Source: Rhodospirillales bacterium (GTDB lineage Bacteria > Pseudomonadota > Alphaproteobacteria > ATCC43930 > CGMCC-115725). From it: 64,000 nt of DNA. Below the pieces are notes generated by a model that was not told where the DNA came from, searched no databases, and saw only the letters and a program-made list of their open reading frames with translations. The DNA is taken from positions 1-64,000 of the forward strand of contig CANJCB010000022.1 in the NCBI GenBank assembly GCA_947473305.1, read 5' to 3'. Below, one piece after another: positions 12,526 to 32,219 of the stretch; the stretch's first letter is position 1; the number at the start of each line of letters is the position of its first letter. A program made the position numbers and the translations under genes.

Positions 12526-13872
12526 CTAGCCTAGCAGCCGTTCCACGCCGAGCGCGATTTCGAAGAGGCGCCTATCCCCTCCGTTCGCGCGGGCCAGCAT
12601 GAGGCCGACGGGAGCTTCGCCCTCCGCCTGGCACGGCAGGCTGATCGCGCAGCCGTCGACCATGTTGATAAAAGTCGGATTCCGCAGAAGCAGGAGATTG
12701 ACGCGGGTATAAGCCTCGTCATCGTCCAAGTCCGCGATGGGCGGCGCGATCATCGGCACGGTCGGCATGGCGAGAACGTCGTAAGCTTCCAGGCGCTTGG
12801 TGAAGCCGGCGATCAGCGCGCGCCGCGCCTGAAGCAGGTCGATGTAATCGGCCGCCGTCTGGGCGGCACCCCGCTTGATGCGCATCAGCACGCGCGGATC
12901 GTAGAAATCAGCCTTCGCCTCGATCAGCGGCCGGTGCCACGCATAAGATTCCGCCGCCGTCAGTCCGCCCTTGGCATTGATGACCGGAACCTGGGCGAAT
13001 TCAGGAACCGGCAGCCGGACGATCCTGGCTCCCGCAGCGGAGAGCCGCGACAAGGCCGCTTCGAAAGCCTTGGCAACGGCGGGCTCCAGCCCGTCCAGCA
13101 CGAGGGTTTCCGGCACCCCCACCCTAAGACCGCTCAGCGGATAATCATCAAGCCGATCGAGCGGCTCTCCGGACAGCACGGCGTCGACAATCGCGCAGCA
13201 TCGCACCGAATTGGCGAGCGGCCCCACCGAATCGAGGCTGCTGGAGAGTGGCACTGTCCCCTCCGTCGGCACCCGGCGTTGGGTCGGCTTGTAGCCGACG
13301 ATCCCATTGAGCGCGGCCGGGATCCGGCAGGATCCACCCGTGTCGCTGCCAAGCCCCATATAGGCCATGCCGGCCGCGACCGAGACCGCCGCGCCGGAGG
13401 AGGATCCACCGGGAATCCGCGCCACCGCGCGATCCCAGGGCGCGGCAGGCGTTCCGAAATGAGGATTGATGCCGAGGCCCGAAAAGGCGAATTCCGTCAT
13501 ATTCGTGCGGCCCATGACGATGAAGCCGGCCGCCTTGAGACGCGCAACCGAGGGCGCATCCCGTGTGGCCGGCGCCGCATCGCCCAGCACCCGCGAGGCG
13601 GCGCCCGACACCTCGCCCGCGATATCGAACAGATCCTTGATCGAGATCGGGATGCCCGCATAGGGAGAGGGAGCCGCGCCGGCCGCGCGCAGGCGGTCGA
13701 TCCCCTCGGCGGCGGCGAGCGCTTTTTCCCTGGTCACGCTCAAGAAAGTCGTTCGCTGGGGCTCGGCGGCAGCATCGATGGTGGAGAGGCATTCCTCGAC
13801 CAGACGGCGGCTGGTGGTGCGGCCCCCGCCAAGCGCCGAAGCCAGCCCGTCGATCGTCATTTTAGCCGCCAT
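12526..13872 (-). CDS. Amidase-signature-family amidase
   Basis: A 448-residue amidase. The Ser-cisSer-Lys triad is visible: K79 in SIKDLFDIAG, the GGSSSGA loop (157-159) and nucleophile S181 in SDTGGSCR. The start at 13872 follows a GGGAGGGG site, and the ATG overlaps the stop of the MarR gene (TGATG), so the two are probably co-transcribed and coupled. The open frame extends well upstream but there only shadows MarR. Substrate is unknown; indole-acetamide, urea-derived amides and small acyl amides are all possible for this family. Confidence 0.9.
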   Translation of the reverse strand: MAAKMTIDGLASALGGGRTTSRRLVEECLSTIDAAAEPQRTTFLSVTREKALAAAEGIDRLRAAGAAPSPYAGIPISIKDLFDIAGEVSGAASRVLGDAAPATRDAPSVARLKAAGFIVMGRTNMTEFAFSGLGINPHFGTPAAPWDRAVARIPGGSSSGAAVSVAAGMAYMGLGSDTGGSCRIPAALNGIVGYKPTQRRVPTEGTVPLSSSLDSVGPLANSVRCCAIVDAVLSGEPLDRLDDYPLSGLRVGVPETLVLDGLEPAVAKAFEAALSRLSAAGARIVRLPVPEFAQVPVINAKGGLTAAESYAWHRPLIEAKADFYDPRVLMRIKRGAAQTAADYIDLLQARRALIAGFTKRLEAYDVLAMPTVPMIAPPIADLDDDEAYTRVNLLLLRNPTFINMVDGCAISLPCQAEGEAPVGLMLARANGGDRRLFEIALGVERLLG

Positions 13873-14456
13873 CAATCCCCTCCCGCCGCCTGGGCGCGCT
13901 GAAAATCCAGTAATGCCAGGGCCTTGTCGCCGCAGCCGACGAGTTTTCCCATCAGCGTCGACATCAGCTGAAACCCGGCTGCGTCGAGACATCCGAAAAG
14001 CGCATCGTTGGCCGGAGCCTGTATCCCGGTGAGCTTCGCGAGCAACCCCCTCGCCCGCTCCGTCGCGGTCAGCAGCACACGCCGCCGGTCTCCGGGATTG
14101 ACGCGCTTTTCGACGAACCCCGCCGTGACGAGCTTGTTGACCTCGATGGTGACGAAGGCCCCGCTCAGATGCAGGTGTTCCACCACGGCAGCGACCCCCA
14201 CCCCCTCGACGTCCTGCAAATGAGCAATCGAGATCAGGATCGTATATTGGCTGCCGGTCAGGCCGACGAACTCGCCGAACCGATCCCTGATCTCCTCGAT
14301 GCGGGCAGCGAAGGCCAGAGTGTCGTGGACGAACTGCCTGAAACGCCGGTCGGATCCATCTTCCAGAAGAGCTGGACTGGATACCGTGAGATCGGGATCG
14401 TCGGGTGAACGGACCGGGGTCATAGGGCGACAATAGTGGGGTGACAGAGCGATCAC
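13872..14456 (-). CDS. MarR-family transcriptional regulator
   Basis: A winged-helix repressor of up to 194 residues. Helices leading to the recognition region (VVEHLHLSGAFVTIEVNKLVTAGF) and the wing (R-V-N-P-G-D-R-R-R-V-L-L-T) are typical of MarR, which usually senses small phenolic ligands. The start is uncertain: GTG at 14456 or ATG at 14423, neither with a clear ribosome site. It is divergent from the Cys-rich protein and UbiD genes and upstream of the amidase, so it may control either or both. Confidence 0.85.
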   Translation of the reverse strand: MIALSPHYCRPMTPVRSPDDPDLTVSSPALLEDGSDRRFRQFVHDTLAFAARIEEIRDRFGEFVGLTGSQYTILISIAHLQDVEGVGVAAVVEHLHLSGAFVTIEVNKLVTAGFVEKRVNPGDRRRVLLTATERARGLLAKLTGIQAPANDALFGCLDAAGFQLMSTLMGKLVGCGDKALALLDFQRAQAAGGD

Positions 14457-14520: not shown

Positions 14521-15180
14521 ATGCAGACCGCGCAACCCTCCTCCGACATATCGCTCGCCGATCTGGCCGCACGGATCTCCGCCCTGGCCGGCGGCGATGC
14601 GGATCGGCGTCAGGATGGGCTCGACCTACTGGCCGTTGCGGCCGGCCTGAAGCCGCTGTGTCTCATCGGCCGGGGAACCGGAGATCCCGGATGGGGGACG
14701 ATCTGGAACGCACCGGTTGTTACAGGCGCGATCTGGGAGCCCGAGGGCGATCTGCCCGCATGGTATCTCGCCGCCACGGCCCGCCGGCGGTCGACATATC
14801 GGGTGACCTATCTCTGCAACGGGCCCGCCACGCAAAAGGCGGCTGAAGCGCTTTGTCGGCTGAGCCGGGTTTCAGCGGAAGCGGAGGCGGCTCTTCTGGG
14901 ATATCCCCTCTGCTGCGTCGCTCATCACCACCGGCAAGTGCTGAGGGCCGAGAAGGAAATCGCCACACGGGCCACCCGTCTTGCCTCGGGCGACGAGCCA
15001 CGCAGGGTCCGGCTGGTCGAAACAGGGGCTTTGTCCGTTCCCTGTCCCCCAATCCGTCCCGCGCCCTGTACCAGCATCAATATGTGCGACGCCTGCGCTC
15101 GCTCCGACGAGAGCCCGGCTGCCCTGCTTTCCAACCGCTACCGGGCGCTTGCCGCCGCGGCAGGCTACGAGGTTCCTTGA
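14521..15180 (+). CDS. Cys/His-rich protein of unknown function upstream of ubiD genes
   Basis: A 219-residue soluble protein. The N-terminal 120 residues are mixed alpha/beta with no recognised motif. The second half contains a GYPLCCVAHHHR cluster (about residues 129-140) and, near the C-terminus, a group of cysteines spaced C-P-P, C-T-S and C-D-A-C, which look able to bind a metal or an Fe-S cluster. A GYP.CC motif also occurs in DUF483-like proteins, but I am not certain of the relation. It lies three bases before the first UbiD gene and shares its promoter region, so it is probably an accessory factor of that pathway. Confidence 0.65.
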   Translation: MQTAQPSSDISLADLAARISALAGGDADRRQDGLDLLAVAAGLKPLCLIGRGTGDPGWGTIWNAPVVTGAIWEPEGDLPAWYLAATARRRSTYRVTYLCNGPATQKAAEALCRLSRVSAEAEAALLGYPLCCVAHHHRQVLRAEKEIATRATRLASGDEPRRVRLVETGALSVPCPPIRPAPCTSINMCDACARSDESPAALLSNRYRALAAAAGYEVP

Positions 15181-15183
15181 GCG

Positions 15184-16587
15184 ATGCGTGACCAATCGAT
15201 CCGCACCCATATCCAGAACCTGGAACAGCAGGGCGAACTCCTCCGCTTTATCGCCGAGATCGATCCCGACGAGAACATGTCGGCGGTCGGCTGGAAGGCC
15301 TATGCCGAATTGGGCAAGAGCTGCCTCTATACCAATATCAAGGGCTATCCCGATTGGACGGCGGTCTCCCAGATCGTGGCGAACCGCAAGAAATGGGGCG
15401 TGGCGCTGGGGGTTTCCGAGGCCGAGGTCGTTCCCACCCTCAACGAGCGGATCGCGCAACCGATCCCCACCGTGGACGTCGACCGCGGCGAGGCCCCCTG
15501 CAAGCAGGTCGTCATGATCGGCGACGAGGTCGATCTCAACAAGATCCCGGCGATGTGGACCTCCGAAAAAGATCCGAGCCGCTACATCGCTTCGGGCATG
15601 TGCATCATCAAGGATCCCGAAACCGGCATCCGCAACATGTCCTTCCACCGCGCCCAGGTCGTGGGGCCGGATCGGACAGGGTTCCTCATCTGCCCCCGGC
15701 AGGCTCTGAAGATCTATCAGATGTACGGGAAACTCGGGCGCCCCATGGAAGTGGCCATGGTGATCGGCGCGCATCCGCTGATCGGCTTTGCCGCCGGCTT
15801 CGTGGCGCCTTACGGGATGGACGAAATGACCATCGCCGGCGGCCTCCTGGGCGACGCCATCCGCATGGTCAAATGCGAGACCATCGACATCGAGGTCCCG
15901 GCCGATGCCGAGCTCATTCTGGAAGGCGAGCTTTGGCCGGGCGAGATGACCCCCGAAGGCCCTTTCGGTGAGGTCACCGGCACCTATGCCCAGGAAGGCT
16001 CGACCCCGATGTTCCGGATCAAAGCGATCACCCATCGCCGGGACCCGATCTTCTACGCGATGCAATGCGGCCTTGCGCCCAGCGAAGCTCATTCGATCAT
16101 CTGCACGACCATCGAGATGAAGCTCTGGGAGCACCTGAAAGGAATCGATGGCGGTGAACTCGACCTTCTGGACGTGCGCTGCATCGGCGCGATGAGCCCG
16201 CTGATGGTCGTGCTGCAGGTCCGCCAGCATCATGCGGGCCAGGGACGGACGGCTGCCTTGGCCGCCTTGTCGAGTCCCTACCTCCACCCGAAGTTCGCCG
16301 TCGTGGTGGACGAGGACATCGACCCCACCGACGTGGGGCAGGTCATGTGGGCCATTGCGACCCGCACCCATGCGACGCGCGACGTGCAGCGGGTGAATTC
16401 GACCCGCGTCTTCACCCTCGACAACGCCTCCCCTATCGAGCCCGGCATGAGCGCCATGTACCGGGTCGGGACCAAGATGGTAATCGACGCCACGAAACCA
16501 TCCCCCGGCAAGCCCAAGGAGCGCGCGCGTTTCGACCGGGCGTTGCCGCCCAACTACGCCAATATCGATCTGAAGGATTACCTCTGA
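15184..16587 (+). CDS. UbiD-family prenylated-FMN (de)carboxylase
   Basis: A 467-residue UbiD-family enzyme, which reversibly decarboxylates aromatic or alpha,beta-unsaturated acids using prenyl-FMN. The catalytic residues that correspond to Arg173, Glu277 and Glu282 of yeast Fdc1 are present: R156 in FHRAQ, and E258 and E263 in P-E-G-P-F-G-E. The cofactor maker UbiX is encoded at 24406. Its stop overlaps the start of a second UbiD-like gene (TGATG). It is very likely the catalytic member of the pair. Substrate is unknown. Confidence 0.9.
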   Translation: MRDQSIRTHIQNLEQQGELLRFIAEIDPDENMSAVGWKAYAELGKSCLYTNIKGYPDWTAVSQIVANRKKWGVALGVSEAEVVPTLNERIAQPIPTVDVDRGEAPCKQVVMIGDEVDLNKIPAMWTSEKDPSRYIASGMCIIKDPETGIRNMSFHRAQVVGPDRTGFLICPRQALKIYQMYGKLGRPMEVAMVIGAHPLIGFAAGFVAPYGMDEMTIAGGLLGDAIRMVKCETIDIEVPADAELILEGELWPGEMTPEGPFGEVTGTYAQEGSTPMFRIKAITHRRDPIFYAMQCGLAPSEAHSIICTTIEMKLWEHLKGIDGGELDLLDVRCIGAMSPLMVVLQVRQHHAGQGRTAALAALSSPYLHPKFAVVVDEDIDPTDVGQVMWAIATRTHATRDVQRVNSTRVFTLDNASPIEPGMSAMYRVGTKMVIDATKPSPGKPKERARFDRALPPNYANIDLKDYL

Positions 16588-17963
16588 TGAGCGGCGCCGA
16601 CCAATCGCTCCGCCCCCTGCTCGCCCAATTGAAGGCGGCGGAACGGCTCGCCACCGTCCGGGAACCGGTCGATCCGATGACCGACCTCGCAGCCGTCGCG
16701 CTGAAGATCCGCGAGGAACGCGGCCGGGCGAGCTTGTTCGAGAATGTGAAAGACGCCGAGGGCTGGCGCGTCGCTGCACAATGCCTGGCCGACCGTGCCG
16801 GCTGGAGCCTGGCGCTCGGTCATTCTGCTGCATCCCTGCTACCGACTTTGTGCGGACGCCTCGGCAAGATCGAACAGATCGAGATCGCCCGCGCCACCGC
16901 ACCCGCCGCCTCGCAAAATCTCGGCCTGGACCTGCCGATCCCCCATGCGGCCGAGCGCGACAGCGGCCCCCAGATGGTTGCCGTCGCCATCGCCCAGGAC
17001 CCCGTCACGGGACGCGACTGCCTGGGCCTCACCCGGCACCGCTGGCTCAGCGACGGGCATTTCAGCGTCCAGAACCTCTGCCCCTCGCTTCAGAAGATCC
17101 GGCAGGCCCATCGCACGGCCGGCACGCCCATGCCGCTGGCGCTCGTCTCGGGCGTCCATCCAGCCGTGTTGTTGGCGGCAGCCCTCGGGACCTGGATGCC
17201 GACGGACCTTGCCCTGGCGGGGAGCCTGATGGGAGAACCCGTCCGGGTCTTTAGGGGCGCCCATGACCTCCTGTTGCCGGCCGATGCGGAATTCGTATTG
17301 GAAGGCGATATCTCGGCCTATGAGACTTGCGATCCGGGGCTTCTCGGCACGGTCTTCGGCACCTATCAGGAAGAGCACCGGTCGCCGGTTTTCGTTCAGC
17401 ACAACAGTTCGCAGCGGGCCGATCCGATCTTCCATGCCCTGCATTTGGGCGGCCCCGGAGATTATGCGGGGGCGCTTTGTCTCGCGGCGGAAATCCTGAT
17501 GGCCCAGCACATCCGCAACATCGAGGGCGGGATCGATTTCATCGACATCAGCTGCCTGCCCGAAACGGGCGGCCTCGTGGTGGTGCTGAAACTCCGGGCG
17601 AGGATGGAGGGCCAGGCAAAGACCGCGCTCATGGGCGCGCTGTCGGGCATCGCCAATTGGGCGAAGTTCGCTATCGCCGTGGACGAGGACGTCGATATCC
17701 AGGACCTTCGCGACGTCTTCTGGTCATCGGCCAGCCGCACCCATGCGGAAAAGGACGTCGGGATGATCGATGGGTTGCGCGCGCTCGTCTCGGACCTCGC
17801 CTCGCCGCTCGACACGGAAAGCGGCGAACGGCTGGCGACCCGCTGGTTCATCGATTCGACCATGCCGCCCTTGTCCCAGGCAAAGGCGCGGGAGGATTTC
17901 GCCCGGGCCATTCCGAAGAATCTGTCCGAAACGGATTTGGCGGACTTCCTCCCCAAGGCTTAA
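16587..17963 (+). CDS. UbiD-like protein lacking the catalytic glutamates
   Basis: A 458-residue UbiD-fold paralogue translated from an ATG that overlaps the stop of the first. It aligns with it across the cofactor region: LEGD..., then GTYQEEHRSP. The arginine equivalent is kept (R150), but the motif P-E-G-P-F-G-E has become P250-x-x-x-x-T255 (D-P-G-L-L-G-T), so both glutamates essential for protonation and decarboxylation are absent. It may be a structural partner in a hetero-oligomer, a cofactor-binding regulator, or an enzyme with another chemistry. The frame is intact and its codon use matches the neighbours, so it is not a decaying gene. Confidence 0.85.
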   Translation: MSGADQSLRPLLAQLKAAERLATVREPVDPMTDLAAVALKIREERGRASLFENVKDAEGWRVAAQCLADRAGWSLALGHSAASLLPTLCGRLGKIEQIEIARATAPAASQNLGLDLPIPHAAERDSGPQMVAVAIAQDPVTGRDCLGLTRHRWLSDGHFSVQNLCPSLQKIRQAHRTAGTPMPLALVSGVHPAVLLAAALGTWMPTDLALAGSLMGEPVRVFRGAHDLLLPADAEFVLEGDISAYETCDPGLLGTVFGTYQEEHRSPVFVQHNSSQRADPIFHALHLGGPGDYAGALCLAAEILMAQHIRNIEGGIDFIDISCLPETGGLVVVLKLRARMEGQAKTALMGALSGIANWAKFAIAVDEDVDIQDLRDVFWSSASRTHAEKDVGMIDGLRALVSDLASPLDTESGERLATRWFIDSTMPPLSQAKAREDFARAIPKNLSETDLADFLPKA

Positions 17964-18632: not shown

Positions 18633-20111
18633 TCACATTGTCGTCGAAGCGCCGGTCTCGCCTTCCAGATCGTAGGAGGCGAGCATCCGGTCAAGCAGGC
18701 CTTGGGCTTCATCCCAGTCATAGGTCCGGAAGGAATGGCCCTTGGTCACGAAGGTCGCGCCCGCATAGAACATCTCATACTGCTGATGGCGCGATCCGAA
18801 TTCCGAGCCCACAGCATCCCAGGCGAGCTTGTAGAATTTCACCTTGTCCTCGGCGCTCGCCAGGGGTGACTGCTGGGTCTTGCCGATGAGATCGGCGATC
18901 TCGGGATTGGCGAAATCCTTGACCGAAGACGGCAGCATGATCATCCCGCCCCCCGCCAGTTCCCGCAGCGCCGTAACGAAGCGTGGATAAAGCTGCTGGG
19001 TCAGGACCTGGGCGGTATAGAGCGTGTGGCGATCGGGCACGAAATAGGGACCATGCATCCGGCCCTTGACCTCCATGGCGGCGACCAACGCATCGACCAT
19101 AGAGGCCTCGGCCGCAAGCTGCCCCAGCATCTCCCGGACCTGGGGAAAACCGATGACGCCGTTCATATCGGCCGTCCGCCGCGCGATCCCGATCAGGAAC
19201 TTGAGCTTCACCGACAGCCGGACCATGGACTGGTAGTTCTGATAGACATGGGCCGGCGTGGCGTGGAACTGCTTCTGGCACATGACGATGTCATTGGCGA
19301 TGAAGACCCGGTCCCAGGGCACCTTCACCTCGTCGAAATAGAGGACGGCGTCGTTCTCGTCGTAGCGGCTCGACAAGGGATTGTCGAAGACCGAGGGCGA
19401 CTGCGCCTCGTAGGATTTCCACGACAGGATCTTCAGGCCCTTCGCATTGAGCGGAATCACGAAGGACACCGCGTATTTCTCATCGCCCGGCTGTAGCGGC
19501 TGGATGCAGGTGACGAAAACTTCATGGGCCATGATGCTGCCGGTGGCGAGCATCTTGGCGCCCCGGATCGTCAATCCCTCCGCATCCTGATCGACCACGC
19601 CCGCCGTGAAATACTCCCCCGATTGCTGGCTCGCGGGCTTGGACCGGTCCGCCTGGGGATTGATGATCACATAGGTCAGATAAAGGCTGTTGTCGCGGGC
19701 GTAGCGATAATAGTCGGCCAGTGCCCCCGCGCGCTTTGGGTCATAGGCCTCAAAGACGTCGAGCCCCATATAGAGGCCGGAGATGCAGGAGGCCACATGG
19801 TCCGGCCCCCGCCCGATGAAGCCGCAATGGAGCTTGGACCAGGCTTCGAGCGCCTGGCGTCTCGTCACCAGCTCCTGATATGAGCGCGGCGTCTGCCAGA
19901 TCCGGTTGACCGGTTTCCCGGTCTCCGGAGCCTTGAAGGTCATCAGCTGGGCATTCGCCGGGTCTGCCTGGAAATCGTAGAGCTTGGCGACCGAAGCCAC
20001 CGTGCGGCGGAAAGCCGGATGCGTCGTCACATCCCGCACCAATTCGCCATCGAGATAGACGGCGCGGCCGTCGTTCAGAGAAGCGATATGCTGCTGGCCG
20101 TTCGGAAGCAT
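18633..20111 (-). CDS. 4-Hydroxyphenylacetate 3-hydroxylase (HpaB)-family FADH2-dependent monooxygenase
   Basis: A 492-residue flavin-dependent monooxygenase of the HpaB family, with the N-terminal helical domain, central beta-barrel and C-terminal four-helix bundle. The YVIINPQADRSK segment (around residue 148-159) and ATGSIMAHEVFVTC (around 197-210) are characteristic. HpaB-type enzymes hydroxylate phenols using FADH2 made by a separate reductase, encoded immediately upstream at 20195. The related 4-hydroxybutyryl-CoA dehydratase has a similar fold but needs Fe-S cysteines that I do not see. The substrate is probably a phenolic compound. Confidence 0.85.
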   Translation of the reverse strand: MLPNGQQHIASLNDGRAVYLDGELVRDVTTHPAFRRTVASVAKLYDFQADPANAQLMTFKAPETGKPVNRIWQTPRSYQELVTRRQALEAWSKLHCGFIGRGPDHVASCISGLYMGLDVFEAYDPKRAGALADYYRYARDNSLYLTYVIINPQADRSKPASQQSGEYFTAGVVDQDAEGLTIRGAKMLATGSIMAHEVFVTCIQPLQPGDEKYAVSFVIPLNAKGLKILSWKSYEAQSPSVFDNPLSSRYDENDAVLYFDEVKVPWDRVFIANDIVMCQKQFHATPAHVYQNYQSMVRLSVKLKFLIGIARRTADMNGVIGFPQVREMLGQLAAEASMVDALVAAMEVKGRMHGPYFVPDRHTLYTAQVLTQQLYPRFVTALRELAGGGMIMLPSSVKDFANPEIADLIGKTQQSPLASAEDKVKFYKLAWDAVGSEFGSRHQQYEMFYAGATFVTKGHSFRTYDWDEAQGLLDRMLASYDLEGETGASTTM

Positions 20112-20194: not shown

Positions 20195-20683
20195 TCAGGG
20201 TCTGTATTTGCCCCGGAAGAACAGCAGCGGCTCGCCATCGGCATGGGTGCTGAATTGCACGACCTCGCCGACGAAGATGACATGGTCGCCGCCATCGTAG
20301 TGGGCGTAGGGCTTGCATTCGAAATGCGCGATCGCTCCCTTGAGAAGCGGCGCCTCCTCATAGCCCAGGTCATGCTCGACATCCGCGAACTTGCCCGAGA
20401 GCTGCTTTGAAAAGAGGTTGGAAATCTCCTCCTGGGACCGGGCCAGGATGTTCACCGCGTAGCCCTTCGCCTGGAGCATTCCGTCGAGGCTGCGCCCCTT
20501 GCGGTCCACGCTGAACAGCACGAGCGGCGGCTCGATCGAGACGGAATTGAAGGAGCTCATCGTCATGCCGATGGTCTCGCCCAAGGGGTTCTTGGCCGTG
20601 ATGATGGCTACGCCCGTGGCGAACATGCCGAAGGCGCTGCGCAATTCCTTCTGATCGAAGCGCGAAGCCTGTTCCGTCATCAC
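20195..20683 (-). CDS. Flavin reductase, HpaC-like small component
   Basis: A 162-residue FMN/FAD reductase of the split-barrel family. The ATGVAIIT segment (residues 22-29), MTMSSFNSVSIEPPLVLFSV and a GDHVIFVGEV stretch near the C-terminus are diagnostic. It uses NAD(P)H to make reduced flavin for the oxygenase encoded 84 bases downstream, forming a two-component monooxygenase. A gaggggggag ribosome site precedes the ATG. It is divergent from the nitronate-monooxygenase-like genes. Confidence 0.9.
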   Translation of the reverse strand: MMTEQASRFDQKELRSAFGMFATGVAIITAKNPLGETIGMTMSSFNSVSIEPPLVLFSVDRKGRSLDGMLQAKGYAVNILARSQEEISNLFSKQLSGKFADVEHDLGYEEAPLLKGAIAHFECKPYAHYDGGDHVIFVGEVVQFSTHADGEPLLFFRGKYRP

Positions 20684-20732: not shown

Positions 20733-20815
20733 TCGCCGTTCGAAAGGAATTGTATCGCTTCCGAAAGGCTGGTCCAATCCCCAAGCAAATTCCCTTTCAT
20801 GGAACGAAATCGCCC

Positions 20816-21766
20816 ATGCCCTTGCCCGCATTGCTCGAAGGACGCCTGAAGCTTCCGGTGATCGCAGCCCCGATGTTCATCGTTTCGGGACCCGACTTGG
20901 TCATCGCTGCCTGCAAGGCCGGCATCGTCGGTGCTTTCCCTGCTTTGAACGCCCGGCCGGAAGAAGTCTTTCCCCAATGGCTCGACCGAATCGAGGAGGA
21001 ACTGGCAGGCGCTCCAGACGCCGCGCCCTATGCGGTGAATCTCATCGTCAACCAGACCAACAAGCGGCTCGACCAGGATCTCGCCGTCTGCGTGGCGCAT
21101 AAGGTGCCGGTCGTCATCACCAGCATGCGGCCGCCCGAGGAGGTCGTCCCGGCGGTCCATGCCTATGGCGGCGTCGTGCTGCACGACGTGATCAGCGCGC
21201 GTCATGCGGAAAAGGCCATCGAACAGGGCGTGGACGGAATCATCGCGGTCTGCGCCGGCGCCGGGGGCCATACCGGCTCGCTCAATCCCTTCGCGCTGGT
21301 GGCCGAGATCCGCCGGATGTGGAAAGGCCCGCTGATCCTGTCCGGAGCCCTGGCGACCGGCCGTTCGGTTTTGGGGGCGCTGGCGATGGGTGCGGACCTC
21401 GCCTATATGGGCACTCGCTTCATCGCCACCGAAGAGGCCAATGCCAATCCGGCGCATAAGCAGATGATCGTGGAGACAATGGCCAAGGACGTGCTCTGCA
21501 CCTCCTTCTTTTCCGGCCTTCAGGCCAATTACCTGAAGCCCAGCATCGCCGCCTCCGGCCTCGATCCCGACGCCCTGCCGGACAAGCAGGCGAGCTATAC
21601 CGGCCGCCGGGCCACGGATGCCAATGCCCGGCCCTGGCGCGATGTCTGGGGCGGCGGGCATGGGGTCGGATTGATCGACGACGTCCCAAGCGTCGCCCAA
21701 TGCGTGGCCAAGCTGAAAATCGAATACGACGAGGCCAGGGCCGATTTCCTCAAGGCTTTCGCATGA
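20816..21766 (+). CDS. Nitronate monooxygenase-family flavoprotein, paralogue 1
   Basis: An FMN-binding TIM-barrel protein of 316 residues in the nitronate monooxygenase/enoyl-ACP reductase II family. The PVIAAPMF start motif, the CAGAGGHTG segment carrying the active-site histidine, and the phosphate-binding GADLAYMGTRF are all present. It is first of three tandem paralogues. The start at 20816 is chosen because the similarity to the other two copies begins there. Its stop overlaps the next start (ATGA). Possible reactions include nitronate oxidation, enoate reduction or a quinone reductase role. Confidence 0.85.
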   Translation: MPLPALLEGRLKLPVIAAPMFIVSGPDLVIAACKAGIVGAFPALNARPEEVFPQWLDRIEEELAGAPDAAPYAVNLIVNQTNKRLDQDLAVCVAHKVPVVITSMRPPEEVVPAVHAYGGVVLHDVISARHAEKAIEQGVDGIIAVCAGAGGHTGSLNPFALVAEIRRMWKGPLILSGALATGRSVLGALAMGADLAYMGTRFIATEEANANPAHKQMIVETMAKDVLCTSFFSGLQANYLKPSIAASGLDPDALPDKQASYTGRRATDANARPWRDVWGGGHGVGLIDDVPSVAQCVAKLKIEYDEARADFLKAFA

Positions 21767-22704
21767 CCCTCCCCGCTCTTCTCCAAGGCCGCCTCGCGCT
21801 GCCGGTGATCGCCGCGCCGATGTTCCTGGTGTCGGGGCCGGATCTGGTGATCGCCGCCTGCAAGGCCGGTATCGTCGGAGCCGTCCCCGCCGGCAATGCC
21901 CGTCCCGAGGCGATGCTCGACGATTGGCTGAAACAAATCGACGAGGCGCTGAAGGACGATCCCCAGGCGGCTCCCTATGCGGTGGGTATCAACGTCCATC
22001 CCAACAACACCCGCCTGGACGAAGACCTGGCGGCCTGCGTCCGCTATCGCGTACCCATCGTCATCACGAGCCTCAGGCCACCGACCGAGGTGGCTCCGGC
22101 CGTCCATGCCTATGGCGGGATCGTCATGCATGACGTGGTCAGCCTGCGCCACGCGGAAAAGGCCATCGAGGCGGGGGTGGACGGGCTGATCGCCGTCTGT
22201 GCCGGCGCCGGCGGTCATACGGGCTCGATCAACCCCTTCGCGCTGGTGGCCGAAATCCGGCAAATCTGGGACGGCCTGCTGGTACTTGCGGGAGCTATCG
22301 GGACTGGACAGGGAGTTCTCGGGGCTCAGGCCATGGGAGCGGATCTTGCCTATATGGGCACTCGCTTCATCGCGACCGAGGAGGCTAGCGCCTCCCAGGG
22401 CTATAAGGAGATGATCGTCGGGACGAGCGCCAAGGATGTCCTGACATCCCCCTTCTTCTCGGGCATCGCTGCGACCTATCTGAAGCCCAGCGTCGCCGCG
22501 GGCGGTTTCGATCCCGACGCCCTTCCCGAAGGCCGTTACAACGGATCGCCGGACGATCCGATCAGGCCCTGGCGCGATATCTGGAGCGCGGGTCAGGGCG
22601 TAGGCCAGATCGACGATATCCCGAGCGTCAAGGACTGCGTCGCCCGGATCAAGGCCGACTACGAAGCCGCGAAAGCCGATTTCCTGAAAGGACTCATATC
22701 GTGA
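21763..22704 (+). CDS. Nitronate monooxygenase-family flavoprotein, paralogue 2
   Basis: A 313-residue paralogue of the preceding gene with the same motifs in the same order (PVIAAPMF, CAGAGGHTG, GADLAYMGTRF). It differs most near the C-terminal loop, where an EGRYNGSPDDP stretch replaces the corresponding segment of paralogue 1. ATG overlaps the upstream stop, and its own stop overlaps the next GTG. All three copies keep the active-site histidine, so each could be active. Confidence 0.85.
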   Translation: MTLPALLQGRLALPVIAAPMFLVSGPDLVIAACKAGIVGAVPAGNARPEAMLDDWLKQIDEALKDDPQAAPYAVGINVHPNNTRLDEDLAACVRYRVPIVITSLRPPTEVAPAVHAYGGIVMHDVVSLRHAEKAIEAGVDGLIAVCAGAGGHTGSINPFALVAEIRQIWDGLLVLAGAIGTGQGVLGAQAMGADLAYMGTRFIATEEASASQGYKEMIVGTSAKDVLTSPFFSGIAATYLKPSVAAGGFDPDALPEGRYNGSPDDPIRPWRDIWSAGQGVGQIDDIPSVKDCVARIKADYEAAKADFLKGLIS

Positions 22705-23645
22705 CGATGCCCGCCTCGCTTGTCGGGCGCCTGACGCTGCCCGTCATTGCGGCCCCCATGTATATCGCCTCAGGCCCCGATCTGGTGATTGCAGCCTGCA
22801 AGGCCGGCATCGTGGGGTCATTCCCCGCGCTCAACGCGCGCCCTCAGGAGATGCTGACGGAATGGCTCGCCCGTATCCGCGACGAGGTCGGGGATGCGCC
22901 CTATGCGGTGAACCTCATCGTTCACAGTTCGAACACGCGGCTCGATCGCGATCTCGCCACCTGCGTCGCGCATCGGGTGCCGATCGTCATCACGAGCCTG
23001 CGCCCACCTTCGGAGGTGATCGCGGCCGTCCATGGCTATGGCGGGATCGTCTTCCACGATGTGGTCAGCCTCCGCCACGCGGAAAAGGCCATCGAGCAAG
23101 GCGTTGACGGGTTGATCGCGGTCTGCGCGGGCGCCGGCGGCCATGCGGGAACCTTGAGCCCCTTCGCCCTGCTCTCGGAAATGCGAGGGATATGGCAGGG
23201 ACCGCTCGTGCTGTCGGGCGCCATCGTGACCGGCCGCTCGATCCTCGCGGCCCAGGCGATGGGGGCGGACCTCGCCTATATGGGCACCCGCTTCATCGCC
23301 ACGCGGGAATCGAGCGCTTCTCTCGCGCATAAGGAAATGATCGTGGCGAGCGCCGCCAAGGACGTGGTTTACACGCCCTTCTTTTCAGGCGTTCACGCAA
23401 ATTACCTGAGGCCGAGCATCGTCGCGGCCGGCCTCGACCCAGAGGCCCTTCCCACAGTCGATAAAAGCAAGATGAACTACGGCGGGCGGGACAAGGAGCC
23501 TCAGGCCAAGGCCTGGCGCGATATCTGGGGCGCAGGGCAAGGCGTCGGCCAGATCGAAGACATTCCCACGGTCGGGGAATGCGTCGCCCGGCTCAAATCG
23601 GAATATGACGCCGCATCGGAAGAGCTGACGCGGCGGCGGTTCTAA
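22701..23645 (+). CDS. Nitronate monooxygenase-family flavoprotein, paralogue 3
   Basis: Third tandem copy, 314 residues, starting at GTG 22701 in a GTGA overlap with the second copy (an ATG at 22707 is an alternative). PVIAAPMY, CAGAGGHAG and GADLAYMGTRF are present. The C-terminal loop again differs, with a KSKMNYGGRDKE insertion. It ends by overlapping the convergent DUF2848 gene by four bases. Confidence 0.85.
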   Translation: MTMPASLVGRLTLPVIAAPMYIASGPDLVIAACKAGIVGSFPALNARPQEMLTEWLARIRDEVGDAPYAVNLIVHSSNTRLDRDLATCVAHRVPIVITSLRPPSEVIAAVHGYGGIVFHDVVSLRHAEKAIEQGVDGLIAVCAGAGGHAGTLSPFALLSEMRGIWQGPLVLSGAIVTGRSILAAQAMGADLAYMGTRFIATRESSASLAHKEMIVASAAKDVVYTPFFSGVHANYLRPSIVAAGLDPEALPTVDKSKMNYGGRDKEPQAKAWRDIWGAGQGVGQIEDIPTVGECVARLKSEYDAASEELTRRRF

Positions 23646-24334
23646 CCCAGCACGGGGAGGGTCGTCACGCTGTAGCCGTGCTTCACGCTGCGCCCCAGCA
23701 CCGGGTCGTGCAGCTCAAGCTCCAGCCGCTCGGAGGGGCGGATGCCGCCATGGGCGGCGAGCGTCCCGAAGAACATCAGCGTGCCATCGGGCAATCCCTT
23801 GCCTTGGGTATAACGGCCTATGAGATCCAAGGGATCGAGCATTGCCGTCACGGGGCCTTCCTGGTAGAGCGCCCGCTTGCCGCCGTCCACGGTATGGGAG
23901 CGGAGGATCAGCTTATCCCAATGATCCTTGACCGCGTCGAAAGGCCAAAAATCCTGGCCGATGGGCTTGTCGCACATCTGCTTGGAAACGGTGACGCCAT
24001 AAGTCTCGACTTGCCGGTCCGTATGATCCGAACCGACGCCGAGCCAGAGCTTGCCGGCCCATTTCAGCATGACGAACTCGACTTCGCCGGATGACTCTTC
24101 ACCCGTTGCCTCGATCTCGTCGTCGGTCGTCAGGCGCGAGGCGGAGACGCGATAGAAGATCGGCGTGGTTGCGGGACGCTTCACGCCCAAGGCTTCCAGC
24201 TCTTTGACGTGCTTCTCGACCGCGGCGGTGTCGCGACCAGTCCAGCCGGCGATGACGGCCTGGGAAACCGTGACCGAAGTCTCGGCGGCGCCCTCGGGCC
24301 CGTGGAACACGAGGTTCAATTGACGACCGGACAT
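23642..24334 (-). CDS. DUF2848-family protein
   Basis: A 230-residue soluble protein that resembles the DUF2848 family, found beside catabolic genes and distantly similar to the fumarylacetoacetate hydrolase fold. Visible features are an early AGWTGRD stretch, PIFYRVSASRL, and GVGSDHTDRQVE (around residue 101-112), the best conserved block. Biochemical function is not known. It is transcribed divergently from ubiX and convergently with the third flavoprotein gene. Confidence 0.7.
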   Translation of the reverse strand: MSGRQLNLVFHGPEGAAETSVTVSQAVIAGWTGRDTAAVEKHVKELEALGVKRPATTPIFYRVSASRLTTDDEIEATGEESSGEVEFVMLKWAGKLWLGVGSDHTDRQVETYGVTVSKQMCDKPIGQDFWPFDAVKDHWDKLILRSHTVDGGKRALYQEGPVTAMLDPLDLIGRYTQGKGLPDGTLMFFGTLAAHGGIRPSERLELELHDPVLGRSVKHGYSVTTLPVLG

Positions 24335-24370: not shown

Positions 24371-24405
24371 ATATGGTCCTGAGACGGGACAGGAGTTTCG
24401 AAGGC

Positions 24406-24978
24406 ATGGGAGGAACGGCCGGCAAACGGCGGTTGATCGTCGGGATTTCCGGCGCTTCGGGTGTCACCTATGGGGTGACGCTGCTCAGAATGCTGCGGTC
24501 CTGGAAGGTTGAGACCCATCTCGTGATGAGCCGCTCGGCCCAGGTAACGCTGGCCCATGAGACGGATCTTAAGGTTGCCGATGTGACCGCTTTAGCCGAT
24601 TTCACCTATCCCAACGAGGATATCGGCGCGGCCATCTCCAGCGGATCGTTCCATACCCATGGGATGGTGGTCGCCCCCTGCTCCATCCGAACCTTGTCGG
24701 AGATCGCCAGCGGCATCACCTCCTCGCTCCTGAGTCGGGCGGCGGATGTGGTTCTGAAAGAGCGCCGGAAGCTCGTGCTCATGGTCCGCGAAACCCCGCT
24801 CCACCTCGGGCATATCAGGTCGATGGCAGCCGCGACCGAGATCGGCGCGGTGGTCATGCCGCCGGCTCCCGATTTCACGGCGCAACCCCAGAATCTCGAC
24901 GAGATGGTCGAAAACTCATTGAGACAGGTTCTCGATATGGTGGCCCTCTCCAACCCCGTGGAGAACCGCCCGAGCTAA
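24406..24978 (+). CDS. ubiX: UbiX-family flavin prenyltransferase
   Basis: A 190-residue flavin prenyltransferase that attaches dimethylallyl to FMN to make prenyl-FMN, the cofactor of UbiD decarboxylases. The GISGASGVTYG flavin-binding turn at the N-terminus, the H-T-H-G-M-V-V-A-P-C-S loop and the E-R-R-K-L-V-L-M-V-R-E-T-P-L-H-L motif are diagnostic. ATG 24406 is preferred over 24373 because an aggag lies ten bases upstream and the length then matches known UbiX proteins. It is followed 23 bases later by an acyl-CoA ligase gene. Confidence 0.9.
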   Translation: MGGTAGKRRLIVGISGASGVTYGVTLLRMLRSWKVETHLVMSRSAQVTLAHETDLKVADVTALADFTYPNEDIGAAISSGSFHTHGMVVAPCSIRTLSEIASGITSSLLSRAADVVLKERRKLVLMVRETPLHLGHIRSMAAATEIGAVVMPPAPDFTAQPQNLDEMVENSLRQVLDMVALSNPVENRPS

Positions 24979-28058: not shown

Positions 28059-29066
28059 ATGGGCGTTCTCGGCCGGTTAGCCGCCGTTATCGGTTTTGCT
28101 CTTCCGCTTCTTGCCGCACCGGCGAGCGCGCAGCAGAAGATCACCATCAAGTTCGTCCATTCGACGCCGCCGACGACCTATTTCCTGCCCTACCTCGTGC
28201 CGGTGGATCAGGGCTGGTACGAGCAGAACGGCATCCATATCGAAGAGATCTTCGTCAATGGCGGCGCCACCGCGCTGCGGACCTTTCTCTCCTCGAAAGA
28301 GGATGAGCTGACCCTGACCAGCGTCGGTCCTTCGATCATCTTCAACGCCATCATCCAGGGCGCCAAGATCAAGTCCATCGGCTCCTGGCAGCCGACGGTG
28401 GACTATCACATCGTCGCCGCCAAATCGGTCGGCACGACCCTGAAAGACCTCCAAGGCAAAATCTTCGCTTCGGCGGATTCATCGGACAATACGGCGGCGC
28501 TGCCGCCTATGATCCTGAAGAAGCATGGGATCGACACCAGCGGCATCCGCTTCGTCCAGGTCGGCGGTCATCCCCAAAGACTCCAGGCGGTCGAGGCGGG
28601 CAAAGCCCAGGCGACCATCATCAATACCCTCACGATGCTGATCGGTCAGAGCCATGGCGCGATCAATGTCGTCGGCAGGGTGGCGGACGACTTCCCCTCG
28701 ATCGCCTATATCACCACGGTGGTGAAGGACAGCGACCTGGCGGACGCCAACAAGCGCAAGGCTCTGGAGATTTTCCTCAAGGGCAACATCATCGGCGCCC
28801 GCTATGTGATGGATCACCCGGACGAGGCCGCAGCGCTGCTCCAAAAGCGGGTTCCGGATCTCGATCCCACCCTCACAAAGGAAGTCGTCCGCCAGCTCAA
28901 CGCCCAGAACATCTGGGGCGTCAACGGCGGCAACAATGCCGATGTCTATCGCTTCACCTCCGAGATCGGCAAGCAGTTGGGCGTCATCGAACGCGAGGTG
29001 ACCGTGGCGGAGGTCATGGACAATTCGCTCGCCGACAAGATCGTGGCGGAAATCGGCAAGCGTTGA
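28059..29066 (+). CDS. ABC transporter substrate-binding protein, nitrate/sulfonate/taurine type
   Basis: A 335-residue periplasmic receptor with a clear Sec signal peptide ending in A-S-A-Q (cleavage near residue 25). It has the SsuA/TauA/NMT1-like fold; the G-W-Y-E-Q-N-G-I motif near residue 52 and the GGATALRTFLSS segment are characteristic. It is the first gene of a complete importer with ATPase and permease downstream. Ligands of this class include sulfonates, nitrate, thiamine precursors and phthalate-like aromatics; the ligand is not predictable here. Confidence 0.9.
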   Translation: MGVLGRLAAVIGFALPLLAAPASAQQKITIKFVHSTPPTTYFLPYLVPVDQGWYEQNGIHIEEIFVNGGATALRTFLSSKEDELTLTSVGPSIIFNAIIQGAKIKSIGSWQPTVDYHIVAAKSVGTTLKDLQGKIFASADSSDNTAALPPMILKKHGIDTSGIRFVQVGGHPQRLQAVEAGKAQATIINTLTMLIGQSHGAINVVGRVADDFPSIAYITTVVKDSDLADANKRKALEIFLKGNIIGARYVMDHPDEAAALLQKRVPDLDPTLTKEVVRQLNAQNIWGVNGGNNADVYRFTSEIGKQLGVIEREVTVAEVMDNSLADKIVAEIGKR

Positions 29067-29144
29067 GGGGGCATTTACAAGCGGCGAGGCAGCACGGATT
29101 ATTCCGAGGCGGGCCTGCGGGGCTCCAGGGGGAGGTCGTTCATT

Positions 29145-29987
29145 TTGCGTAATCTGGCGGACAATGCCGTGGCGGAACAGACCGGGGCTTCGACCCGGGC
29201 GATGATCACCGTTGAAGGGGTCCATAAGGGGTTCAACGTCCGTGCGACGGGCGGGGATGACGGTGGCGGCGGTTATATGACCGTGCTCCAGGATGTCAGT
29301 TTCGACGTGAAGGAAGGCGAGCTTGTCAGCCTGCTGGGCGCCAGCGGCTGCGGCAAAACCACCCTCCTGCGCATGGCGGCCGGCCTCATCAAGCCCGATC
29401 AGGGTTCCATTTCCATCAAAGGCACGCGCCTGCAGGGACCTCGCAAAGACCTATGCATGGTCTTCCAGAATTTCAGCCTGCTCCCCTGGCGGCCGGTGCT
29501 GTCCAACGTGGCATTCCCGCTGGAACTCGACGGCATGGGCAAGGCGGAGCGGGAGGATGTCGCCCGCCACTATATCGAGATCGTCGGCCTCCAGGGTTTC
29601 GAGCGGCATTTCCCGCACGAGCTTTCAGGCGGCATGCAACAGCGCGTCGGCATCGCCCGGGCGCTGACCCGGAAGCCGCTGGTTCTTTTGATGGACGAGC
29701 CTTTCGGCGCGCTCGACGCCCAGACCCGGGAAACCCTGCAAGAAGATTTCATCAAGATCTGGGCGCAGCTCAAAACCACCGTCGTCTTCGTCACCCATAG
29801 CATCGACGAAGCGCTGATGCTGTCGGACCGCATCATCGTCTTCAGCTCACGCCCCGGCCGCATCAAGCGGACGATAGCCCCGCCCTTCGCGGCGCTTCGC
29901 GGCCAGGAAGACGTGCGCGTGAAGCCCGAATTCGGATCATATGCCCAGGAAATCCGCGATCTCCTGAGGGTGGAGAGAACCCCATGA
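29145..29987 (+). CDS. ABC transporter ATPase, nitrate/sulfonate/taurine type
   Basis: A 280-residue ATPase. Walker A (GASGCGKTT), Q-loop (VFQNFSLLPW), signature (LSGGMQQRVGIARA), Walker B (VLLMDEP) and H-loop (VTHSIDEA) are present; the LLPWRPVLSNV stretch is typical of SsuB/TauB/NrtD. The start is TTG at 29145, supported by a gggggagg site about nine bases upstream; an internal ATG at residue 20 is possible. Its stop overlaps the permease ATG. Confidence 0.9.
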   Translation: MRNLADNAVAEQTGASTRAMITVEGVHKGFNVRATGGDDGGGGYMTVLQDVSFDVKEGELVSLLGASGCGKTTLLRMAAGLIKPDQGSISIKGTRLQGPRKDLCMVFQNFSLLPWRPVLSNVAFPLELDGMGKAEREDVARHYIEIVGLQGFERHFPHELSGGMQQRVGIARALTRKPLVLLMDEPFGALDAQTRETLQEDFIKIWAQLKTTVVFVTHSIDEALMLSDRIIVFSSRPGRIKRTIAPPFAALRGQEDVRVKPEFGSYAQEIRDLLRVERTP

Positions 29988-30820
29988 ACGACGCTTCCAT
30001 GACGGAGCCCCGGGCAACGGACATGCGTCCGCAGGAAAAACCAAGCGTCCTCGAATGGCTCAAGGCGCGGCCCAACGTCTTGCGCGTCAGCGCCGTTGTG
30101 ATCTTCTTCATCTGGTGGGAATTGGTCGGGCGGGACGTCAACCCGCTGTTCATGACCTACCCCTCCGCCATCTTCAGGGCGGCCTGGATCATGACCCAGT
30201 CGGGCGAGTTGCCCAAGGCACTGGTCGCGAGTTCCCTGCCTTTCGCCATCGGACTCAGCATCTCGATTTTCGGCGGCATCGTCATCGGCATCCTGATCGG
30301 GACCTTCTGGTTCCTTGAATACAGCCTCGATCCCTTTCTCAATGCGCTCTATGCGATCCCCCGCGTGGCGCTGGTGCCCTTGATCATTCTCTGGGCCGGC
30401 CTTGAAACCACGGGCAAGGTCACGATCATCATATCGCTCGCGATTTTCCCGGTGATCATCAACACCTATTCGGGCATCAAGGACGTGCGCGGCAGTCTCA
30501 TAGAGATCGGTCGGGCCTATGGCGCGACCGAGATCCAGATCTTCCAGAAGATCGTCCTGCCGGCCTGCGTACCCTATATCATGGCGGGAATCCGCTTGGC
30601 GGTGGGCTTCGGCATCATCGGCATCATCGTCGCCGAGTTCTTCACGGCGATCACCGGCCTCGGGGGGCTGATCGTCTTCTATTCGAACAATTTCGCCACG
30701 GCGAAGCTCTTCGTGCCGGTGATCGTCATCGGCATCCTCGGCATCGCCATGACACAGCTCGTCGCGATGCTGGAAAAGCGGCTCTCAGGCTGGCGGATTT
30801 CGGAGCGGGAGCGGTTCTAG
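29984..30820 (+). CDS. ABC transporter permease, nitrate/sulfonate/taurine type
   Basis: A 278-residue inner-membrane permease with six predicted helices after a hydrophilic N-terminus of about 30 residues. The EAA loop (E-I-G-R-A-Y-G-A-T-E, near residue 171-180) contacts the ATPase, as in SsuC/TauC. It overlaps the ATPase gene by four bases and converges on the ArsR gene with a four-base overlap. Confidence 0.9.
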   Translation: MNDASMTEPRATDMRPQEKPSVLEWLKARPNVLRVSAVVIFFIWWELVGRDVNPLFMTYPSAIFRAAWIMTQSGELPKALVASSLPFAIGLSISIFGGIVIGILIGTFWFLEYSLDPFLNALYAIPRVALVPLIILWAGLETTGKVTIIISLAIFPVIINTYSGIKDVRGSLIEIGRAYGATEIQIFQKIVLPACVPYIMAGIRLAVGFGIIGIIVAEFFTAITGLGGLIVFYSNNFATAKLFVPVIVIGILGIAMTQLVAMLEKRLSGWRISERERF

Positions 30821-31155
30821 CTCCCCTCCAAACCCTCCACATGCGCCTTCAAGCGACCTAGGGCATCGTCCCAGCGGCGGGATATCTCGGCGAGATAGTC
30901 CCGCACGTCTTCAAGCGGCTTCGGCTGCAATTGGTAGCGACTTTCCCGGCCGATGCGCATGCTGTGCACCATGCCGGCGTCGGAGAGCACACGCAGGTGC
31001 TTCGTCACCGCCTGCCGAGTGAGACGGGTGCCGGCGGTCAGCCGCGAGATCGACTGGGGATCGCCCTCGCAGAGACGCGCCAGCACTGCCAGCCGCGTCT
31101 CGTCCCCCAGCGCAGCGAAGACCCGCGCATGGGACGCCTCAAGCTGCATGGACAT
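30817..31155 (-). CDS. ArsR-family winged-helix regulator
   Basis: A 112-residue regulator. The helix-turn-helix reads Q-S-I-S-R-L-T-A-G-T-R-L-T-R-Q-A-V-T-K-H and is followed by the L-R-V-L-S-D-A-G-M-V wing. No metal-binding cysteine motif is present, so it is of the type paired with SRPBCC/AHSA1 proteins rather than a metal sensor. Its start (31155, or 31149) lies inside the end of the SRPBCC gene, with a 17-base overlap, so the two are co-translated. It probably autoregulates through the region near 31635-31664. Confidence 0.85.
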   Translation of the reverse strand: MSMQLEASHARVFAALGDETRLAVLARLCEGDPQSISRLTAGTRLTRQAVTKHLRVLSDAGMVHSMRIGRESRYQLQPKPLEDVRDYLAEISRRWDDALGRLKAHVEGLEGS

Positions 31156-31594
31156 GTTTGGCGATGTTCTCCATCTGCGCCACCCAGCCATTCTCGTGCT
31201 TCGGGAAGGCTTCGAGGCGTCGTTCCGGCGGCAGCTTGTCGAAGCCGGACTCGACCACCCGCACGAGGGTGCCGGTTGCCGTCGGCTGCAACGTGAACTC
31301 AACCAGCGTCTGCGTCTCATCGGAAAAGTCGCGCTTTGGGTCGATAGCGAAAGGATGCCAGGTAAAGGCGAAAATCCGTTCAGGCTCCATTCTCACCACG
31401 GTCGTTTTCCATGGGACGTTCTCATAGCCCTCGCAGGGGTTAATCTTCCGGCCGCTACTAGCCTTTCCCACCACAAAGGGTCCGTCGAGCTTGACGCCGA
31501 ACCAAGCGCCGAACTCGGTGTGATCGGTCAGCGCGCGCCAAACGCGCGAGACAGTGGCTTTGACCTCAATGGATTTTTCAATACGATCCGACAT
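31139..31594 (-). CDS. SRPBCC/AHSA1-like protein
   Basis: A 151-residue START-like domain protein with a hydrophobic ligand cavity. The N-terminal V-W-R-A-L-T-D motif and the F-A-F-T-W-H-P region are typical of AHSA1-like SRPBCC proteins encoded with ArsR partners. The start at 31594 follows a perfect aggagg at six bases. Ligand unknown; such pairs may sense and bind hydrophobic molecules. Confidence 0.85.
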   Translation of the reverse strand: MSDRIEKSIEVKATVSRVWRALTDHTEFGAWFGVKLDGPFVVGKASSGRKINPCEGYENVPWKTTVVRMEPERIFAFTWHPFAIDPKRDFSDETQTLVEFTLQPTATGTLVRVVESGFDKLPPERRLEAFPKHENGWVAQMENIAKHVHAA

Positions 31595-31634
31595 CCGCAA
31601 CCTCCTAGTTGCGGATTGTTTAAAACAGCCCCGC

Positions 31635-31664
31635 AGAAAAGGCAACTATTTTGTTGCCTTTTCT
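31635..31664. terminator. Perfect 12-bp hairpin between the RidA-like and SRPBCC/ArsR genes
   Basis: Arms agaaaaggcaac (31635-31646) and gttgccttttct (31653-31664) pair perfectly around a six-base AT loop. It lies 18 bases beyond the RidA-like stop and could terminate that transcript. It also lies just upstream of the SRPBCC/ArsR leader, with a TTGCCT ... TAAACA (17-base spacer) promoter-like pair overlapping it, so an ArsR operator is an equal possibility. Confidence 0.5.
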
Positions 31665-31681
31665 TTCATGGGCCAAATGGG

Positions 31682-32098: not shown

Positions 32099-32219
32099 GA
32101 TAATCCTCCTGCGGTTGGAAATTTCTCTTGTGTCAAAGGCCGGGAGAGGGCCGAAAAGTCAATGGCAAAACCGCCCCTCCCCGCTTAACCTGGGCTCAGC
32201 AATGGGAGGATAACGAACT

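Follow-up and report, generated by a model that had tools for sequence, protein, structure and literature searches.

In T. aromatica, phenylphosphate carboxylase reportedly needs two UbiD-like subunits (PMC7500099), two such subunits of D. anilini are reported to be 52% identical, and VdcC is described as having no activity when isolated (PMC10865409). Residues 334-465 of E. coli UbiD have served as a hexameric core made up of oligomerisation domains (PMC8379154), and the C-terminal helix of UbiD is described as associating with the prenyl-FMN (prFMN) domain of the adjacent monomer (PMC8988006). As to catalytic residues, very low activity only is reported for the Fdc1 variant E277Q and none for E282Q, and the Fdc1 arginine is tied to cofactor maturation (PMC5818171).

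Here we analyse a locus that encodes two UbiD proteins, P0001 and P0002, from overlapping genes. P0002 is a UbiD relative of P0001's own lineage and lacks both catalytic glutamates and the metal-site residues.

Results

Gene layout

The window, by which we mean the whole stretch of DNA analysed, comprises bases 1-64000 of contig C22 (64,800 bases) in a draft genome of 4.7 Mb that holds eight UbiD-domain matches. It contains the following features:

13872..14456, - strand: MarR-type regulator (domain match), divergent and possibly regulating this operon
14521..15180, + strand: P0003, Cys-rich DUF483-like protein of 219 aa (weak Pfam DUF483 matches of homologues, invariant Cys)
15184..16587, + strand: P0001, catalytic UbiD (alpha) of 467 aa, with R156, E258, E263, N151 and E214 all present
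16587..17963, + strand: P0002, pseudo-UbiD (beta) of 458 aa, UbiD domains present and catalytic residues lost
16929..17456, + strand: degenerate prFMN-binding (Rift) domain of P0002, residues 115-290 (Pfam PF01977; C145, P250, T255, gap at E214)
17334..17351, + strand: codons P250 to T255 of P0002, the lost Glu sites by alignment
17472..17954, + strand: residues 296-456 of P0002, oligomerisation domain and C-terminal tail, the sole part surviving in fused relatives
18633..20111, - strand: HpaB-type flavin-dependent monooxygenase (domain match), a possible pathway neighbour
20195..20683, - strand: flavin reductase (domain match), a possible pathway neighbour
24373..24978, + strand: UbiX flavin prenyltransferase, likely the prFMN source (NF004685, 240.2 bits vs a cut-off of 188)

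P0003, P0001 and P0002 follow one another in this order as three closely spaced genes on the + strand. The P0003 stop and the P0001 start are separated by a 3-base gap, and the second UbiD gene has the overlapping start given in the preliminary description, an ATGA in which the A of the P0002 ATG is also the last base of the P0001 TGA. The HpaB-type monooxygenase and the flavin reductase are situated between P0002 and UbiX, and the gene neighbourhood points to the breakdown of some aromatic or heteroaromatic compound; going by family, the substrate of P0001/P0002 may likewise be an aromatic or heteroaromatic acid.

Catalytic and metal-site residues

All three Pfam UbiD domains (N-terminal, Rift and C-terminal) score above their cut-offs in both P0001 (PF01977 222.8, PF20696 81.5 and PF20695 40.5 bits) and P0002 (103.7, 61.0 and 45.1 bits), and HmfF (6h6v) is the closest solved relative of each by sequence. 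The two proteins are 33-34% identical to each other (about 66% divergence), and TIGR00148 (cut-off 244.85) places P0001 above the cut-off (299.8) and P0002 below it (174.8). In addition to the three domains, P0001 has the Arg-Glu-Glu network of a UbiD, read from the frame at 15184-16587 just as previously noted (R156; E258, GAA at 15955-15957; E263, GAG at 15970-15972), together with the metal-site Asn and Glu. By its three domains P0002 is a UbiD homologue, but both catalytic acidic residues and the metal-site Asn/Glu that mark an active UbiD are missing: the frame at 16587-17963 and the alignment described below bear out the earlier assignment of a retained R150 with P250 (CCG, 17334-17336) and T255 (ACG, 17349-17351) in place of the glutamates.

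We aligned P0002 using MAFFT with 50 other UbiD rows, some of them near-duplicates (P0001, HmfF, residues 127-470 of E. coli UbiD, 5 UbiDs from the same genome, 39 from other loci and 3 N-parts of the fusions described below), having dropped rows whose aligned part was shorter than 380 residues or which another row already contained. At position 258 there is E in 50/50 of these rows; position 263 holds E in 45 rows and D in the other 5, and the R156 position is R in 50/50. The N151 position holds N in 48/50 rows and C (C145) in P0002, the E214 position holds E in 48/50 and a gap in P0002, and the L412 position holds L in 37/50 and S in P0002. N151 and E214 of P0001 correspond in the alignment to N175 and E241 of E. 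coli UbiD, which we take to be metal ligands. No other acidic residue of P0002 falls at either glutamate position, the nearest being D249, one before the first site, and E262, seven after the second.

The P0002 frame is intact, as had been claimed, with 458 aa, three Pfam domains and an alignment with HmfF that runs nearly end to end, and this alignment rules out a frameshift as the cause of the Glu loss. Since Fdc1 E282Q is reported as inactive and E277Q as nearly so (PMC5818171), we do not expect P0002 to decarboxylate alone. Read in the order N151, R156, E214, E258, E263, the five sites are N-R-E-E-D in all of 11 further distinct, intact UbiDs that the length filter had removed from the alignment. 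Four new proteins were obtained from two tandem UbiD clusters; two of them read H-R-E-Q-E, and the one of these that was tested is a relative of phthaloyl-CoA decarboxylase.

Spread of the loss over the domains of P0002

The cofactor domain of P0002 has lost more conserved columns than that of any of the 50 rows compared. Counting columns that are at least 85% conserved in the other rows (leave-one-out for the 50 others), P0002 retains 16/23 in the prFMN domain, where the worst of the other 50 rows retains 18/23; in the oligomerisation domain it retains 11/13, inside the range of the others (down to 10/15). With four intact members of the lineage P0002 shares 30-34% identity over its prFMN domain, as against 37-43% over its oligomerisation domain; of these two the prFMN domain is the less similar in 4/4 comparisons, and it is the lowest of all three domains in 2/4. 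The opposite holds for P0001, whose prFMN domain is the most similar domain in 5/5 comparisons (prFMN/oligomerisation identity 79/62% with the fused orthologue, then 63/52, 57/45 and 44/33, and 39/31 with HmfF). New prenyl-FMN chemistry in P0002, one of three roles put forward in the preliminary description, thus finds no support in the domain comparison. The inversion is absent when P0002 is compared with HmfF (prFMN 29%, oligomerisation 24%), and for the intact pair L058/L045 identity is a little higher over the oligomerisation domain (59%) than over the prFMN domain (56%).

An AlphaFold2 model of P0002 from a 5-row alignment was poor (mean pLDDT 44.9) and gave no interface; Foldseek with this model ranked HmfF top (E 8.8e-14), but at a TM of about 0.26, so that it speaks for the fold family only.

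Fused relatives in genus g249

A search of 385 genomes of the class (source genome included) with P0002 led to G354, a member of genus g249, in which the match is part of one long frame. The same fusion is present in 3/3 g249 genomes (G354, G429 and G430), among 23 genomes of that family, and encodes a protein of 610 aa in which a P0001 orthologue is followed directly by about 160 residues of P0002-like C-terminus. The N-part of the G354 fusion is 69% identical to P0001 over 438 residues, and the fused C-part matches P0002 residues 296-456 at 48-49%. By BLAST the fused C-domain of G354 is 48% identical to P0002 vs 35% to P0001; that of G429, in the multiple alignment, shows the small margin of 45% to P0002 and 41% to P0001. 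Because these last identities are nearly equal, the grouping of P0002 with the fused C-domains rests on BLAST together with a tree of 54 oligomerisation domains (ultrafast bootstrap, SH-aLRT and 200 bootstrap trees). In this tree P0002 clusters with the three fused C-domains (ultrafast bootstrap 99, SH-aLRT 98), with one change for P0002/fused C-domain in 100% of the 200 bootstrap trees, although the tree program flags P0002 as a long branch, which makes its placement less sure. P0001 groups with the fused N-parts at weaker support (94/69).

Selection on the fused C-domain is strongly purifying: comparing the three g249 species in pairs gives dN/dS values of 0.041-0.065 for this domain and 0.043-0.083 for the catalytic part. 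The oligomerisation domain and tail of P0002 therefore have a counterpart in g249 that is fused to an active enzyme and kept by purifying selection, the selection having been measured on this fused piece and the full-length P0002 having been found in one genome only. Because the fusion retains only the C-terminal end, and under selection, the cofactor domain of the second protein is dispensable in g249 and the ring-forming end is not. Among the three roles proposed at the outset, that of a partner, possibly an obligate one, is accordingly the best supported.

In 3/3 fusions the tail of the alpha half is absent and that of the beta half is present. A single polypeptide thus comprises one cofactor domain and two ring domains, and its only tail is that of beta; the kept piece starts at a position that aligns with about residue 331 of E. 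coli UbiD, near the beginning of the core fragment 334-465 mentioned above. This make-up is compatible with docking of the beta tail on alpha within a ring. That the alpha tail and the cofactor domain of beta were lost independently we rejected as a separate argument: a single in-frame deletion in a gene pair like the present one would remove both, and since one such deletion suffices, the two absences are counted as one event.

The fusion bears on two other readings of P0002. One is that the protein still binds prFMN or FMN, for some other chemistry or as a cofactor store or maturase for P0001, which agrees with the retained R150, with the 16 conserved prFMN-domain columns still in place and with the link of the Fdc1 arginine to cofactor maturation reported in PMC5818171; because R150 is retained and the protein is still full length here, there is room for a role of its upper domains. 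The metal-site N and E are missing, however, and the whole prFMN domain is absent from the fused relatives, so that we regard this reading, other prFMN chemistry included, as unlikely, and with it the regulatory cofactor-binding subunit of the preliminary description. In the other reading P0002 would be an assembly chaperone or a regulator bound to P0001 transiently, and not a stoichiometric subunit. Small helpers are described for other UbiDs, for example LpdD (PMC10865409), and a helper could equally be encoded by a gene overlapping that of P0001, but a covalent 1:1 fusion in three species better suits a permanent subunit, and we consider a transient helper quite unlikely.

Occurrence of P0002-type and P0001-lineage proteins

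We searched overlapping draws of 99 near, 43 order, 385 class, 398 phylum and 27 other-order genomes, each including the source genome where it belongs, and among the matches read found no full-length P0002-type protein beyond the source genome; further cases may exist among the weaker matches. The other order, that of G250, has P0001-lineage UbiDs (E 1e-60 or better) in 24/27 genomes. At the 52 listed places that were read there (8 + 44), Glu loss was seen in 0/52, and every P0001-type frame of the 44 further loci reads N-R-E-E-E. The flanks of these 44 loci were followed for up to about 3 kb either way, contig ends permitting (36 loci), or for up to 1.5 kb (8 loci), and a second UbiD frame was found nearby in 0/44, a suspected frameshift and a short piece aside. 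These two exceptions are one locus with an overlapping second frame, which we take to be a frameshift, and one locus with a short extra piece.

A scan of contigs with named records yielded no P0002 orthologues, just 3 loci at 24-27% identity. Plasmid searches with P0002 matched 395 records, the best 40 of the 395 being 26-31% identical, and a search of viral contigs with P0001 gave no match.

The restriction of the full-length form to one genome, the lost catalytic residues and the fact that the best P0002 matches are UbiDs of its neighbour's lineage would all be expected if P0002 were a functionless tandem duplicate of P0001 turning into a pseudogene. Such a duplicate would hardly have kept 458 codons open despite about 66% divergence from P0001, or 11 of 13 conserved oligomerisation-domain columns, and the related piece in g249 is under purifying selection; we judge decay into a pseudogene to be highly improbable.

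The third gene, P0003

Among eight P0003 homologues 25 positions are invariant, including four Cys, C131 and C132 in a YPxCC (YPxCCV) motif and C189 and C192 in a CxxC motif. Seven of the eight match DUF483 (PF04467) weakly (best E 0.0024), and P0003 itself does not match it even at E 5. The homologue profile gave nothing significant against solved structures (best E 1.1), and P0003 matches no NCBIfam family.

The P0003 profile matches 5/372 class genomes (G000, G145, G250, G339 and G354), and all five have a P0001-lineage UbiD. It also matches 26/27 genomes in the order of G250, including 24/24 of those with a P0001-lineage UbiD; G812 and G814 (at most 71% complete) have P0003 but no UbiD of that lineage, and in G818 (67% complete) both are absent. 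The P0003 and UbiD genes are adjacent in G000 and in the fusion genus, where a P0003 homologue is encoded 5 to 7 bases upstream of the fusion in 3/3 genomes, and lie 4.3-4.7 kb apart in L058-L061. Close linkage is not a general rule: 0/44 other-order loci have P0003 in the flanks read, though the genomes have it, and in the order of G250 the two genes are often on different contigs. Taken together, P0003 probably belongs to the P0001/P0002 system, as an accessory protein of the same enzyme.

Discussion

We consider it likely that P0001, as the catalytic subunit, and P0002, as a pseudo-enzyme subunit, together make up one hetero-oligomeric UbiD (de)carboxylase. Their hetero-oligomerisation is what we infer from the fusion and from the conservation of the oligomerisation domain. 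P0002 would pair with P0001 via the oligomerisation domains, probably in an alternating ring that would be alpha3-beta3 if the usual hexamer applies, and its C-terminal tail would dock on the prFMN domain of a neighbouring P0001, like the tails of adjacent monomers in known UbiDs. Half of the potential active sites of the ring would then be silent, and decarboxylation would be carried out by P0001 alone with prFMN from the nearby UbiX. Because distant relatives retain only its ring-building end, fused to an active enzyme, the comparison suggests that P0002 serves as a structural partner rather than as another enzyme.

A bolder version of this proposal, which we offer as a tentative possibility, is an alternating alpha3-beta3 UbiD ring with one half of its sites silenced by design. 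The tail of the pseudo-subunit would cap the active domain next to it and modulate how that domain opens and closes, and the four-Cys DUF483-like protein would be a third subunit that supports the active site; the g249 fusion would be the natural minimal form, with three active domains on a six-lobed core.

If the hetero-oligomer exists, it would represent a natural separation of two tasks of the UbiD ring, holding the cofactor and making the moving ring. The fusion would be a natural minimal construct bearing on the independence of the active sites of the hexamer and also on whether domain closure depends on the C-terminal tail of a neighbour. Furthermore, a DUF483-like protein would be placed beside a UbiD enzyme.

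Comparison with known systems

HmfF, presumably a furan-dicarboxylate decarboxylase, has six chains in the crystal (6h6v) and, unlike P0001/P0002, a single subunit type with intact E-R-E.

The preliminary description regarded the arrangement as the strongest candidate in the window for an undescribed one. Paired UbiD-like subunits as such are already known (PMC7500099); a UbiD pseudo-enzyme with both glutamates lost, and a relative with the oligomerisation domain only, were not found in the open-licence papers searched. No link between a DUF483-like protein and a UbiD enzyme was found there either.

Phthaloyl-CoA decarboxylase (Pcd), a solved UbiD, has a close relative at L078 (974 bits), which, with a similar protein at L077, aligns with Q at the first Glu site, so this site alone can vary. 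In both proteins the second site and position 214 still hold E, whereas P0002 has lost both glutamates and E214. The naphthalene carboxylase of culture N47 resembles the present locus in its multiplicity, with four UbiD-like genes in a single cluster and a proposed complex of ~750 kDa (PMC12016498), but it is an anaerobic hydrocarbon carboxylase and is compared here at the level of the gene cluster.

In the vanillate decarboxylase VdcCD a small four-Cys partner is bound close to the active site of a catalytic UbiD hexamer (PMC8379154). This partner, VdcD, is described as the four-Cys zinc protein of active VdcCD (PMC8379154, PMC10865409) and provides a precedent for a partner like P0003; P0003 also has four invariant Cys, a likeness that is functional guesswork. 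P0003 differs in being DUF483-like and not a recognised zinc ribbon, and no mention of a pseudo-UbiD partner for VdcCD was found in PMC8379154 or PMC10865409. P0001 (270.1) and P0002 (139.0) both score below the VdcC cut-off (NF041204, 650).

A parallel in subunit make-up exists with phenylphosphate carboxylase (Ppc) and its aniline counterpart, phenylphosphoamidate carboxylase, in which, as proposed here, two UbiD-like subunits are described as cooperating (PMC7500099, PMC6114531). The sequences are unlike: against TIGR02723/TIGR02724 cut-offs of 564.6/468.95, P0001 scores 144.8/156.0 and P0002 48.5/67.4, and with scores this far under the family cut-offs we rejected P0002 as a known Ppc or Vdc subunit. 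TIGR02724 at E 1e-100 matched 0/398 phylum genomes, and likewise 0 of the control genomes, so that this count does not bear on whether a Ppc subunit is also degenerate. If P0002 is indeed a pseudo-enzyme partner of P0001, the pair may bear on why Ppc-type carboxylases have more than one UbiD subunit.

Conserved pairing of P0001-lineage UbiDs with the DUF483-like Cys protein

Nearly every genome in the order of G250, one of the relatives' genomes, carries one DUF483-like Cys protein (a homologue of P0003) together with one to three UbiDs that group with the catalytic UbiD P0001, and the pairing of the two across this order is almost universal. One UbiD of this lineage in G250 (L054, 7784-9319) is extended at its N-terminus, and the start motif (GLRGF... 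/ GLRGYL...) is present twice in the extension, which looks like a partial duplication of the N-terminal end.

Gene neighbourhoods

In locus L060 (7222-11284), the P0001 orthologue is followed by genes that, judged by eye, encode a putative MarR-type regulator, a putative bicupin (e.g., a gentisate dioxygenase), and a putative dihydrodipicolinate-synthase-like aldolase, giving a hint of aromatic ring catabolism. The window itself contains the following genes, the last group of which is possibly part of the same catabolic island as the window's UbiD genes:

20750-23645, + strand: three tandem genes, alike in appearance, the first a nitronate monooxygenase-type flavoprotein (Pfam) and the last overlapping the opposite-strand gene below
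23642-24334, - strand: DUF2848 gene
28059-33364: genes for a RidA-type protein, an alpha/beta hydrolase, and a Rieske protein, near an NMT1/THI5-type binding protein

Tandem UbiD pairs with a substituted first glutamate

UbiD pairs in tandem are found in two genomes of the same family (L077, G010 contig C93; L078, G018 contig C37), and one UbiD of each pair has Q aligned at the first glutamate site (E258 of P0001). The Q-bearing UbiD of L078 is a relative of phthaloyl-CoA decarboxylase (974 bits to 8pmk).
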